This document shows positions 11,941 to 31,616 of a stretch of 64,000 nt of DNA, piece by piece. The notes under the pieces were generated by a model that saw only the letters and a program-made list of their open reading frames with translations, searched no databases and was not told the origin of the DNA. The stretch is taken from the NCBI GenBank assembly GCA_937911325.1, contig CALDSD010000054.1, forward strand, positions 1 to 64,000. The letters run 5' to 3'. Made by a program: the position numbers and the translations under genes. How positions within the stretch are numbered: position 1 is the stretch's first letter; every line of letters starts with the position of its first letter. The DNA is from an uncultured Neomegalonema sp. Its GTDB lineage: Bacteria > Pseudomonadota > Alphaproteobacteria > Rhodobacterales > Rhodobacteraceae.

Positions 11941-12099
11941 GGCGGGACCATCATGGGCCGTGGGATTTTTGTTTCCCGCGGACCTGGCTAACCAGGTGGG
12001 CGCCAGGTGCGTTAGGCCACAGCCAGTCGCAGAGCCAGCTCCCATGCGAGAAATTAAGGCCCCCGGAAACAAGTACCCACGCACCGGACAGAACCCGCC
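11941..12099 (-). ncRNA. ssrS: 6S RNA
   Basis: The minus strand after zapA folds as a long 6S-type hairpin. The closing stem pairs GGCGGG (12099-12094) with CCCGCC (11946-11941). Inside it GTGGG pairs with CCCAC, and GTTTCC with GGAAAC. A large asymmetric internal bulge holds CTTAATTTCTCGC, the promoter-mimicking region that binds the housekeeping RNA polymerase. The apical arm contains CACCTGG...CCAGGT. Length of about 159 nt and a position directly downstream of zapA match alphaproteobacterial ssrS. Ends are estimated from the closing stem. Confidence 0.85.
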
Positions 12100-15999: not shown

Positions 16000-16914
16000 A
16001 TGAATACTGCTGGGCTGGACTTGAACCTGTTGCGCGTCTTTGACGCCGTCTACCGCGAGCGCAACGCCACGCGCGCCGCACGGCGCGTCGGCCTTTCGCA
16101 GCCGGCGGTTTCAAACGCGCTCTCGCGTCTGCGCGCGCAACTTGGCGACGAGCTGTTTCACCGCGCGCCGGAGGGACTGCGACCGACAGCGCGCGCGGAT
16201 GCTCTCGCGGAACCGGTCCGCGCCGCGCTCGGACTGATCGAGGATGCGCTCGAGGGCCCCGAGTTCTTGCCGGCGTTGACCCGCCGAACGTTTCGCGTGG
16301 CGTCCGTCGACTACGCCGTCGCCGTCCTGATGCCGCGCGTGGCCGCGCGACTGGCGCGGGAAGCGCCCAATTCCCGTCTCGTCGTGCTGCCTTCCATCGG
16401 GCGCACGCTGGATCTGCTCGATGACGGCGAGATTGACGTCGGCCTGCTGATCCGCAGCGCGCCGCCGGAGCGCTTTGAAGCCGAACCGATCCTCCGGGAC
16501 GAATATGTCGTCGTCATGCGCCCGACCCATCCGTTAGCCGAGGCGGAGATGACGCTGGCGGCTTATGCAGAGTGGCCGCACCTGTTGATGAGCCCAACCG
16601 CGGAAGTGCGGGGCGTGGTCGACGAACGGCTGGCCAAACAAGGGTTGACGCGGCGCGTTGCGATGGTGGTCACCCAGTTTCCATCGGCGCCCCCGATCCT
16701 TGAGACGACGGACATGATCCATACCTGCCCGCGCCGCATCGCCGACATCTACGCCAAAAGGTTCGGACTGGCGATCCGGCCGACGCCCTTCGACACGCAT
16801 CGCGGCGCCGGACCCGTCTCGATGATCTGGCGCCGTCGCCTCGGGGAGAGCGCCGCGACCTCGTGGTTCCGGAAGGTCCTTCTTGAAGAGGCCGCGACCG
16901 TGCTTGAGAGCTGA
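16000..16914 (+). CDS. LysR family transcriptional regulator
   Basis: A 304-residue LysR regulator. The winged helix begins LDLNLLRVFDAVYRERNATRAARRVGLSQPAVSNALSRL as a standard LysR reader, followed by the linker helix and a periplasmic-binding-like effector domain (FRVASVDYAVAVLMPRVAARL) as in the NodD/LinR/PcpR branch. The ATG at 16000 puts the helix-turn-helix at the normal distance from the N-terminus; an upstream ATG at 15910 would add 30 unrelated residues and cover the palindrome. It is divergent from an SDR gene, its most likely target. Confidence 0.9.
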   Translation: MNTAGLDLNLLRVFDAVYRERNATRAARRVGLSQPAVSNALSRLRAQLGDELFHRAPEGLRPTARADALAEPVRAALGLIEDALEGPEFLPALTRRTFRVASVDYAVAVLMPRVAARLAREAPNSRLVVLPSIGRTLDLLDDGEIDVGLLIRSAPPERFEAEPILRDEYVVVMRPTHPLAEAEMTLAAYAEWPHLLMSPTAEVRGVVDERLAKQGLTRRVAMVVTQFPSAPPILETTDMIHTCPRRIADIYAKRFGLAIRPTPFDTHRGAGPVSMIWRRRLGESAATSWFRKVLLEEAATVLES

Positions 16915-27133: not shown

Positions 27134-28120
27134 ATGACCCGATCCACCAAGCTGCTTGACCGACGGGACGTTCTGAAGATTGGGGCAGGGGCCGGCGTGC
27201 TGGGCGCGAGCGCACATTTCGGCATCGCAGCGCGCCCGGCGTTCGCCGCCGATTTTGAACAAGCTCCCGGCTTTTTCCGCTTCGCCTTGGGCGAGATGAC
27301 CGTGACGATCGTGTCCGACGGTCATTTGGAGATCCCGGCCAGCGTCGTCGCGAGCAATATCGGCGTTGACGAGCTACGCTCTTACTTGAGCGCGCGATTT
27401 CTCGACACCGACATCAACTACGGTCACACCAACCACGTGTTGATCGAGACCGGTGAAGATCTCGTCCTCGTCGACGTGGGGTCCGGCGAGCGGTTCCAGC
27501 CCACCGCAGGCAAGCTGGTCGAAAACCTCGATCTCGCAGGCTATGCCCCTGAAGACGTCACAAAGGTCGTCTTGACGCACGCGCACCCTGATCATGTCTG
27601 GGGCATGCTCGACGAGTTTGAAGACGACCTCCGCTTTCCCGAGGCGGAGCATATCGTCGGGGCGGCGGAGTTTGATTGGTGGATGGCTGCGGACCGCGTC
27701 GCCTCGTTGCCGGACGATCTGAAGCCCTTCGCTGTCGGCGCGCAAAAGTCTTTCGAACCCATCGCGGATCGGCTGGTCAAGGCCACAGACGGGCTCGACG
27801 TCGCACCAGGCTGTCGCTTGATCGCAACCCCTGGGCACACGCCTGGCCATATGTCGTTGATCGTCGAAAGCGGCGATCAGACCATGCTCGTCGCCGGAGA
27901 CGCGATCAACCACGGCTACGTCGCCTTTGAACACCCGGATTGGCGACCCGCTTTCGACTTCGACAAGGACCTCGCGGTGGCGACGCGAAAGCGCCTTCTT
28001 GAGATGTGCGCGTCGGATCGAATGTTGATTTCAGCGTATCATCTGCCGTTCCCTGGCGTGGGTCACGCGGCGCGGGCGGGTCAGGCATATCGCTATATGC
28101 CTGCTCTGTGGCGCTGGTAG
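27134..28120 (+). CDS. Tat-exported MBL-fold metallo-hydrolase
   Basis: A 328-residue metallo-beta-lactamase-fold hydrolase. The N-terminus has a twin-arginine signal: DRRDVLKIG, a hydrophobic Gly/Ala run and a cleavage site near AFAAD. The metal site is THAHPDHVWGM, then PGHTPGHMSL, the Asp in AGDAI and a late His in SAYHLPFPG, so it can bind two metals. Relatives include quorum-quenching lactonases and other periplasmic hydrolases. GGGGG lies just upstream of the ATG. It is divergent from the GT39 gene; a gap of 221 bases separates them. The substrate is unknown. Confidence 0.9.
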   Translation: MTRSTKLLDRRDVLKIGAGAGVLGASAHFGIAARPAFAADFEQAPGFFRFALGEMTVTIVSDGHLEIPASVVASNIGVDELRSYLSARFLDTDINYGHTNHVLIETGEDLVLVDVGSGERFQPTAGKLVENLDLAGYAPEDVTKVVLTHAHPDHVWGMLDEFEDDLRFPEAEHIVGAAEFDWWMAADRVASLPDDLKPFAVGAQKSFEPIADRLVKATDGLDVAPGCRLIATPGHTPGHMSLIVESGDQTMLVAGDAINHGYVAFEHPDWRPAFDFDKDLAVATRKRLLEMCASDRMLISAYHLPFPGVGHAARAGQAYRYMPALWRW

Positions 28121-28201
28121 GCCCTCCGCACGACAGACGCCTTGAAGACGAAACACACCGGCAAGAAATCGGGACTCAGCCGATGTCAAGCTGATCAAAA
28201 T

Positions 28202-28230
28202 CGAGACTTTTAGAGATTAACTAATATAAT
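28202..28230 (+). promoter_or_regulatory. promoter with consensus -10 (TATAAT)
   Basis: TATAAT at 28225-28230 is a perfect -10 box, which stands out in this GC-rich genome. The -35 region, 17 bases before it, is GAGACT and weak. Transcription would begin near 28237. No protein start follows closely. It fits as the promoter of the small RNA ending at the terminator at 28369-28402. Confidence 0.55.
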
Positions 28231-28236
28231 TTCGCT

Positions 28237-28402
28237 GCAATTGTATCGATGCGGGATAAGACCTTGTGATCGCGCCCGCTCTATCCCATTGTCTTATGAG
28301 CGCGGTGGACGCCGCAAGGAACAGACGAACGACACTCAGGTACGAACTCTCCAACTCTCAACTTTCTTCGCCCCGGCGCACCCGCGTTCGGGGCGTTTTT
28401 TT
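28237..28402 (+). ncRNA. candidate small RNA (about 165 nt)
   Basis: Between a consensus -10 box and a strong intrinsic terminator lie about 165 bases with no believable reading frame. The sequence has nested inverted repeats: GGGATA with TATCCC, ATAAGAC with GTCTTAT, and CGCTC with GAGCG. Some of these compete, which is common in regulatory RNAs. It lies after the metallo-hydrolase gene and before the DUF465 gene. It could instead be the 3' UTR of the hydrolase or the 5' leader of DUF465, but the promoter and terminator argue for a separate transcript. It does not carry the SRP RNA core motif. Confidence 0.5.
28369..28402 (+). terminator. Rho-independent terminator
   Basis: CGCCCCG and CGGGGCG form a 7-bp GC stem with a 13-base loop, followed directly by seven Ts. 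It is the clearest plus-strand terminator in the window. Confidence 0.85.
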
Positions 28403-28518
28403 GTTGAATGCTCGGCTGGTCCGTTCGGCTTGAGCGGGATCAAGTTTCCGTCTTCCAACCTAGGCGATGGTGCTCCAGCCGCCAGGTTGGCGGCGTTGTG
28501 AAACAAACGGTTCCAAAG

Positions 28519-28767
28519 ATGACTCACACACCACATGAACTCACCGAAGCATTCCCCGAGCACGTTGACGCGATCCATCGTCTGAAGATGGAGAATGTCC
28601 ACTTTGCAAAGCTGGCCGACACATATCACGACCTGAACCGCGAGATTCACCGCGCCGAAACCAATATCGAGCCGATGGACGACTTTCACGTCGTCGAGCT
28701 TCGCAAGAAGAGGTTGTCGCTGCTTGACCAGATCCACGCCATGCTCACGCATGGACCCGCTACCTGA
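28519..28767 (+). CDS. DUF465 (YdcH-like) small helical protein
   Basis: An 82-residue all-helical protein of the DUF465/YdcH family (PF04325). It begins PHELTEAFPEHVDAIHRLKMENVHFAKLADTYHDLNREIHRAE and ends VELRKKRLSLLDQIHAML, both parts typical. Members form small coiled-coil hairpins; the function is unsettled. The ATG at 28519 is used because the family starts at this point; upstream sequence in frame has no homology. The likely small-RNA gene ends 116 bases upstream. Confidence 0.85.
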   Translation: MTHTPHELTEAFPEHVDAIHRLKMENVHFAKLADTYHDLNREIHRAETNIEPMDDFHVVELRKKRLSLLDQIHAMLTHGPAT

Positions 28768-28973
28768 GCGGATGCGCCGAAACGCGACCGAGCTCGATCG
28801 ATCGTCAGGTTCCGAAGGGCGATCGGCGTTCAAGATGAACAAAGTCATCAACCAGATCTCTGAACGGGGCGATCGCTCTTGAGTTGACAAGCCGCCGCGG
28901 CTGATGGCCCCTGCTGAAAGCGCGTGAGCCCATAGCGCCGGCTGACGCGCACAAAACCAGACCAGGAGCCGAG

Positions 28974-31616
28974 ATGCTGTCGTTGCGCCCCGAGGACGCT
29001 ACCGCCCTGCCGATGGTGAAGCTCGCCGACTACCAACCGCCGGATTGGTTGGTGGACAGCGTTCACCTGACGTTTTTGCTGCATCCAACGGCGACGCGGA
29101 TCGTCAGTCGGCTTCGACTGCGCCGCAACGCAGATGGCGCGACCAGGCCTGACCTGCGATTGCTCGGGCGAAAACTGACCCTCGTGAGCGCCTCGATCGA
29201 CGGCGTCCCTCTGAAGGACGGCGACTACGCCTTGGACGAAGAAGGGCTCACCGTCAGCAGCGCGCTGCTGGACGGCGACGCAGTTGTCTGGGAGTGCGAA
29301 ACCGAAGTCGACCCCAAGGCGAACACGGCCCTTGAGGGGCTTTACATGTCGCGCGACATGTTCTGCACCCAATGCGAAGCCGAGGGTTTTCGCAAGATCA
29401 CCTATTATCCGGACCGTCCGGACGTCATGAGCGTCTTCGAGGTTCGGATCGAAGGCGACAAGGCGGCCTTCCCGGTTTTGCTCTCCAACGGAAACCGTGT
29501 CGCGGCGGGCGATCTTCCAAACGGCCGCCACTTCGCCGAATGGCGCGACCCGCATCCGAAACCGTCCTATCTGTTTGCGCTTGTGGCCGGCGATCTGGTG
29601 TCGACCGAAGACGCCTTCACCACGGCCTCGGGACGCAACGTAACGCTTCAGATCTTCACGCGGCCCGGCGATGAAACGAAGACCGCCTATGCGATGGACG
29701 CGCTGAAGCGGTCGATGCTCTGGGACGAGCAGGCCTATGGGCGCGAATACGATCTCGACCTCTTCATGATTGTCGCTGTCGACGACTTCAACATGGGCGC
29801 GATGGAGAACAAGGGCCTCAACATCTTCAACTCGAAATACGTGCTCGCCAGCGCGGAGACGGCGACCGACCGCGACTACGAGCTGATCGAGAGCGTTGTC
29901 GCTCATGAGTACTTCCACAACTGGACGGGCAATCGGATCACGTGTCGAGACTGGTTTCAGCTTTGCCTCAAGGAGGGCCTGACCGTCTTTCGTGATCAGC
30001 AGTTCTCCGAAGAGGAAAGGTCGGAAGCAGTCACCCGGATCGACGAAGTGAGAACCCTTCGCGCCCGGCAGTTTCGAGAAGACGCCGGCCCCCTCGCCCA
30101 TCCGGTTCGTCCAGAGCAGTATGTCGAGATCAACAACTTCTACACAGCGACCGTCTACGAGAAGGGCGCAGAGATCGTGCGGTTGCTGCACACGCTGGTC
30201 GGGCCGGAGGGTTATCGGCAGGCGTTGGACCTCTACTTCGAACGGCATGACGGCGAGGCGTGCACCATTGAAGATTTCCGGCGCTGCTTCGAGGATGTCT
30301 CAGGTCGCGACCTGAGCGACTTCGCGCGCTGGTGGAGCCAGGCCGGGACGCCTCGGGTTCACGTCGAGGAGCGTTTTGAGAACGGCGTTTATGAGATCAA
30401 ACTGTCCCAGCATGTCGAGCCGACGCCGGGTCAGCCGACGAAAGACCCCGTCACCATTCCTATGAAGTTTGGCTTGTTGGGCCATGACGGACAGGAACTC
30501 GACGTCGCGGCCGACCTGGCGGGACTGATAGAGCTCGACGCAGCGGAGAAAGTCGTTCGGATCGAGGGGGTGCAGGAAAAACCCACCTTGTCGATCAACC
30601 GGGGGTTCTCCGCTCCGGTGATCATTGACCGCGCGATGAGCCCGGAAGAGCAGGCGTTCTTGCTGGCCCATGACAGCGACCCGTTCAATCGTTGGGAGGC
30701 TGGGCGCGCGTACGCCGTCGACACAATCCTAAAACGGATCGAAAACCCCGGCTTGGATGTGGGCGGTTTCGTCGACGCAATGGGGCAAGCGCTTTGCAAC
30801 GCCGAGCTGGATCCAGCCTTCCGGGCCCTCGTGTGGACGTTGCCAAGCGAAGAAGAGTTGGCGCAGACGGTCGCTGACCGTGGGGGCTTCGCCGACCCAG
30901 ACGCGATTTACGCGGCGCGATTGGGGGTACAAGCCGCGCTCGGAGAAGCGCATTACGACCTCCTTTGGCGACTGCTCGAAGAGATGAAGACGCCCGGGCC
31001 TTACGCGGCGGACGCCGACAGCGCCGGCAAACGCGCGCTCAAGAACATGTCCCTGAGCTATCTGGCGCGGCTCGGAAGAGCCGCGGCGCTGGAGGCCGTC
31101 GAAACCCAGTTTCGCGATGCGGACAACATGACCGACCAGTTGCCGGCCTTGACGTTGCTCGTGCATACCGGCGCGGGAGCGTCCGACCGAGCCCTGGAGG
31201 CGTTCTACGACCGCTGGCGCAGCGACAGTCTGGTGTTGGGCAAATGGTTCGGCGTTCAAGCGACGTCGCCGCAACCAAATGTCCTGGAGCAGGTCGTTGC
31301 GCTGACCGAGCACCCCGCGTTCGAGTGGAAGAACCCAAACAAGTTCCGAGCGCTGATCGGCGCGTTCGCGATGGCGAACCCGGTCGGGTTCCATCGGGCG
31401 GATGGCGGCGGATACCGCTTTTTCACGGATTGGCTGATCCGACTGGATCCCGTGAATCCTCAAACAACGGCGAAACTCACAGGCGCCTTTGAAAGTTGGC
31501 GGCGTTATGACAACGCGCGTCAGTCGATGATGACAACCGAACTGCGGCGGCTTCAGAACACCGAAGGTCTCTCGAAAGACACCAGTGAAATGGTCGGTCG
31601 CCTGTTGGGCGGGTAG
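28974..31616 (+). CDS. pepN: aminopeptidase N
   Basis: A full-length 880-residue M1-family zinc aminopeptidase that removes N-terminal residues from peptides in the cytoplasm. The exopeptidase motif GAMENKGLN lies near residue 277, the zinc motif HEYFHNWTGNRITCRDW near 310, with the third zinc ligand Glu in LKEGLTVFRDQ. The tyrosine of YEKGAEIVRLL completes the site. The C-terminal helical arch of DUF3458 type is present. It converges on the polyamine ATPase gene with 5 bases between the stops. The 206-base gap upstream shows nothing besides a presumed promoter. Confidence 0.97.
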   Translation: MLSLRPEDATALPMVKLADYQPPDWLVDSVHLTFLLHPTATRIVSRLRLRRNADGATRPDLRLLGRKLTLVSASIDGVPLKDGDYALDEEGLTVSSALLDGDAVVWECETEVDPKANTALEGLYMSRDMFCTQCEAEGFRKITYYPDRPDVMSVFEVRIEGDKAAFPVLLSNGNRVAAGDLPNGRHFAEWRDPHPKPSYLFALVAGDLVSTEDAFTTASGRNVTLQIFTRPGDETKTAYAMDALKRSMLWDEQAYGREYDLDLFMIVAVDDFNMGAMENKGLNIFNSKYVLASAETATDRDYELIESVVAHEYFHNWTGNRITCRDWFQLCLKEGLTVFRDQQFSEEERSEAVTRIDEVRTLRARQFREDAGPLAHPVRPEQYVEINNFYTATVYEKGAEIVRLLHTLVGPEGYRQALDLYFERHDGEACTIEDFRRCFEDVSGRDLSDFARWWSQAGTPRVHVEERFENGVYEIKLSQHVEPTPGQPTKDPVTIPMKFGLLGHDGQELDVAADLAGLIELDAAEKVVRIEGVQEKPTLSINRGFSAPVIIDRAMSPEEQAFLLAHDSDPFNRWEAGRAYAVDTILKRIENPGLDVGGFVDAMGQALCNAELDPAFRALVWTLPSEEELAQTVADRGGFADPDAIYAARLGVQAALGEAHYDLLWRLLEEMKTPGPYAADADSAGKRALKNMSLSYLARLGRAAALEAVETQFRDADNMTDQLPALTLLVHTGAGASDRALEAFYDRWRSDSLVLGKWFGVQATSPQPNVLEQVVALTEHPAFEWKNPNKFRALIGAFAMANPVGFHRADGGGYRFFTDWLIRLDPVNPQTTAKLTGAFESWRRYDNARQSMMTTELRRLQNTEGLSKDTSEMVGRLLGG

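Follow-up and report, generated by a model that had tools for sequence, protein, structure and literature searches.

A probable stand-alone small RNA gene between a hydrolase gene and a DUF465 gene in an uncultured Neomegalonema sp.

Does the intergenic stretch that separates a metallo-hydrolase gene from a small DUF465 gene in this alphaproteobacterium carry a gene of its own, and if so, of what kind? The 64-kb window (the whole stretch of 64,000 nucleotides that was analysed) holds, on its forward strand, a gene for a metallo-beta-lactamase-fold hydrolase (PF00753, assigned by domain match; 27134-28120), and farther on, on the same strand, a gene for a DUF465 small protein (PF04325, likewise a domain match; 28519-28767), which is followed, again on that strand, by an M1-family aminopeptidase gene starting at 28974. 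A sequence-only reading had placed a stand-alone small RNA between the first two. Our analysis favors this answer: positions 28225-28402 probably constitute a stand-alone small RNA gene, whose predicted product of about 165 nt would extend from 28237 to 28402 on the forward strand.

The promoter signals are suggestive as a group. A TATAAT hexamer, taken as the -10 element, is read at 28225-28230, preceded by a weak -35 element, TCGAGA, at 28201-28206; the spacer is 18 bp and the two hexamers together match at 10 of 12 positions, all on the forward strand. The surrounding 51 nt (28190-28240) are 69% AT in a window that is 62% GC, and only 0.26% of the window's 51-mers are as AT-rich. By itself, the -10 hexamer is weak evidence for a promoter because it is present four times in the window, where 1.5 copies would be expected; the earlier description of it as perfect is correct, while its supposed rarity should be reduced to uncommon rather than exceptional. 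Upstream of the -10 element there is also an 11-nt near-repeat, AAATCGGGACT and AAATCGAGACT, whose copies lie 32 bp apart; by our own estimate, about 0.6 such pairs would be expected. A sigma-70-type promoter of this kind would start the transcript near 28237, a position placed 7 nt past the -10 element.

The 3' end is more sharply defined. At 28369-28402, on the forward strand, the window scan and folding identify an intrinsic terminator in which the arms CGCCCCG (28369-28375) and CGGGGCG (28389-28395) form seven perfect GC pairs and are followed directly by seven Ts (28396-28402), just as the sequence-only reading had described. The hairpin has a predicted dG of -20.6 kcal/mol (z = -3.4). 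It is the only terminator of its grade in the window (7-bp perfect stem, at least six GC pairs, at least six Ts), where 0.03 would be expected from random windows of matched composition, and a set of 60 random windows gave no TATAAT with such a terminator in the next 300 bases. The automatic terminator scan overlooks this hairpin, as it accepts loops of at most 8 nt. The reverse complement lacks a T-run, and the terminator is thus directional, predicted to end the transcript at 28402.

What lies beyond the terminator bears on whether this unit is independent of the gene that follows. An FNR/FnrL box, TTGAGCGGGATCAA, is located at 28430-28443; it is the best-scoring FNR-type site in the window and is conserved in DUF465 homologues. 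A box of the form TTGATNNNNGTCAA precedes the gene in nearly all of about 30 DUF465 homologues from other genera, in most cases at a distance of 70-78 nt from the start codon. Since this conserved box follows the terminator, the DUF465 gene has a promoter separate from that of the RNA. The genome also encodes two FnrL-type proteins, each with a CX2CX7CX2C cluster and an E..SR recognition helix. Several observations about this neighboring region stand on their own. The box upstream of DUF465 genes is conserved across the family (28430-28443; loci L114-L142), and DUF465 is named in none of ten FnrL regulon papers from a literature search, so that a conserved member of that regulon may have gone unremarked here. 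Between the box and the DUF465 start, an imperfect hairpin, CCAACCTAGGCGATGG/CCAGCCGCCAGGTTGG, at 28455-28490 overlaps the predicted DUF465 -10 region. The DUF465-pepN order (28519-31616) is shared with another genus (G108), with pepN 69.5% identical, and in that genus no RNA gene precedes DUF465.

The position of this second promoter weighs against reading the RNA as a cis-acting leader, either attenuator or riboswitch, of DUF465 in which alternative hairpins would decide termination. The two elements are on the same strand, the terminator lies 117 nt ahead of the DUF465 start, and mutually exclusive pairings are possible in the RNA. A leader would be expected between the promoter and the start of its gene, whereas here the conserved FNR-type promoter comes after the terminator, which makes a leader unlikely. 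In addition, no anti-terminator is seen against the terminator arm, DUF465 homologues lack such a leader, and no Rfam riboswitch matches; we consider this reading improbable. A more serious rival concerns the other flank. From the end of the hydrolase frame (28120) to 28369 the scan finds no strong terminator, and since the hydrolase gene lacks one of its own, transcription may run on from it into the RNA stretch. The terminator could then belong to the hydrolase, the stretch could be a long 3'UTR of its mRNA, and TATAAT, which is present four times in the window, could be there by chance; a small RNA might even be processed from such a transcript without a dedicated RNA gene, and 3'UTR-derived sRNAs are described as common in Rhodobacter (PMC8625941, PMC9779115). 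Against this, it would be unusual for a 3'UTR of 250 nt to include a stretch that is exceptionally AT-rich and ends in a perfect -10 element, and the hydrolase homologues of the family lack this downstream sequence. A hydrolase 3'UTR is the main rival, and an unlikely one.

It is also conceivable that the region encodes a short protein, for example from the ATG at 28296 or the GTG at 28266. The earlier claim that no protein frame fits here needs a qualification: frames of 86 aa (from TTG 28241) and 55 aa (from GTG 28266) do stay open across the region. Both traverse the terminator hairpin, neither has a ribosome site or a known homologue, and a 6-codon frame at 28249 reads MRDKTL. Within the predicted RNA we found no convincing ORF and no frame with a ribosome site; the substance of the claim therefore stands, and a short-protein gene seems extremely unlikely. 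The promoter and the terminator, together with the FNR-type promoter that the next gene has to itself, give good sequence support to a stand-alone unit of about 165 nt, and the proposal of a stand-alone small RNA is partly borne out; a reservation is the missing terminator of the upstream hydrolase gene.

The predicted RNA folds into three parts in order: a 5' structured domain, a single-stranded linker and the U7 terminator. The 5' domain (28241-28345, forward strand) consists of a closing stem and an inner hairpin at 28262-28319 with a 16-nt loop, and in comparison with shuffled sequences it has no extra stability (z = -0.8). It is followed by a CU-rich, G-free linker, AACTCTCCAACTCTCAACTTTCTTC (28345-28369, forward strand), which is unpaired at about 90% in the predicted ensemble and contains AACTCTC twice. 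G-free runs of at least 24 nt occur seven times in the window, counting both strands and including the linker. The linker is a candidate seed of an anti-Shine-Dalgarno-like type. The competing inverted repeats to which the sequence-only reading drew attention are literally present (28253-28258/28282-28287 and 28256-28262/28291-28297), yet the number of exact inverted repeats, whether 5, 6 or 7 nt long, is reached in 27-33% of shuffles, so that they carry no statistical weight. A structural switch operating through competing hairpins was considered and rejected: imposing the alternative folds carries penalties of 4.5 and 6.1 kcal/mol, and the repeats are not enriched.

Of what kind, then, would this RNA be? 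The genome itself shows the promoter and terminator signals, a unit closed off from the gene that follows, a linker predicted to be accessible, and an Hfq gene (E = 5.7e-33); that the RNA is transcribed, binds Hfq and pairs with targets is what we infer. Several features of an Hfq-dependent sRNA are present at the locus: an intergenic location, its own promoter and intrinsic terminator, a terminator with a long U tail, and a predicted accessible single-stranded seed. The modelled layout of 5' domain, CU linker and U7 terminator is how Hfq-dependent base-pairing sRNAs are built. A trans-acting regulator is the likeliest kind of RNA here, in view of the unpaired CU linker, the U7 terminator and an Hfq gene in the genome. 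The RNA would most likely act as an Hfq-bound base-pairing regulator in which the CU-rich linker (28345-28369) pairs with purine-rich ribosome-binding sites and the U7 tail of the terminator serves Hfq. Tested against 58 start regions predicted in the window, the linker paired no better than shuffled linkers. The original suggestion of a trans-acting or structured regulatory RNA is thus supported in part: the linker, the U7 tail and Hfq favor its first half, the internal repeats are without weight and the whole-RNA fold is close to that of shuffles (z = -1.1).

Searches for relatives were made in a comparison set of 397 genera of the family, in which the genus of this bacterium is represented by this genome alone. 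Neither blastn against the 396 other genera, plasmids and phages nor a covariance model of the RNA, run over the 397 genomes and then with laxer filters over 35, returned a credible homologue. The blastn matches were only 16-38 nt long and were either at chance level or confined to the terminator, and in the ten covariance-model matches that were displayed at the level of single residues it is mainly the terminator hairpin that aligns. The RNA is not found beside homologues of either the hydrolase or DUF465, and synteny is not shared; a scan of viral contigs for the linker pattern also found none. Because the genome is the sole representative of its genus in the set, the absence of homologues says little on function. 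The Rfam search that had been proposed for the candidate (Rfam 15) gave no family at the gathering threshold, and none of the matches at E ≤ 10 reached it either. Elsewhere in the window, 6S RNA (RF00013) is found at 11941-12097 on the minus strand, barely over its Rfam threshold. An ARAGORN tmRNA call at 16466-16693 is a false positive, lying inside a LysR-type gene and without an Rfam match; the real alpha_tmRNA is located elsewhere in the genome (G000:C57:9028-9401).

The strongest Rfam lead is a full-length, sub-threshold match of the 3' half of the RNA to ncS54 (RF02871; 24.2 bits and E = 0.0022 against a gathering score of 43 bits). In the candidate as in this Burkholderia RNA, an unpaired CU-rich stretch precedes a GC-rich terminator that carries a U7 tail, and several sRNAs described with ncS54 have CU-rich unpaired stretches that possibly mask ribosome-binding sites (PMC5688073). 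The 5' domain is unrelated, and Burkholderia belongs to another class of bacteria; we read the likeness as one of design, not descent. Closer to the host are the Rhodobacter sphaeroides sRNAs StsR, PcrZ, RSs0019 and others, some of which are FnrL-controlled (PMC4263372, PMC8307010), small RNAs from what is likely the same bacterial family. StsR, compared here by length only, has 72 nt against about 165 nt for the candidate.

Such examples raise the possibility that the RNA gene has an FnrL-activated promoter and is an FnrS-like sRNA of low oxygen. Close to the class II position lies CTGATCAAAATCGA (28191-28204), which agrees with the FNR box at 8 of 10 positions, the FNR-type DUF465 promoter adjoins, the genome has its two FnrL-type proteins, and FnrL binds 5' of two R. 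sphaeroides sRNAs (PMC4263372). On the other side, the site reaches 6.1 bits, a value equalled at 34 window positions, where the DUF465 boxes have 11-20, and its centre falls near -39.5, not at -41.5. E. coli FnrS is similar in idea only, as an FNR-activated sRNA; here the FNR site is weak and there is no Rfam sequence match. Low-oxygen control of the RNA is therefore a lead only, to which we assign little probability. Still less should be given to the bolder proposal of a lineage-specific, possibly FnrL-controlled RNA, neighbor to an FNR-controlled DUF465 gene, that would use its linker with the repeated AACUCUC as a partial mimic of the ribosomal anti-Shine-Dalgarno sequence to repress many mRNAs at falling oxygen.

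The candidate is a routine annotation lead. It is probably an ordinary, lineage-specific sRNA gene, so far seen in this bacterium only. If this reading is correct, a deep genus of a Rhodobacteraceae-like family, represented by a single genome, would gain one sRNA gene that is not yet catalogued.
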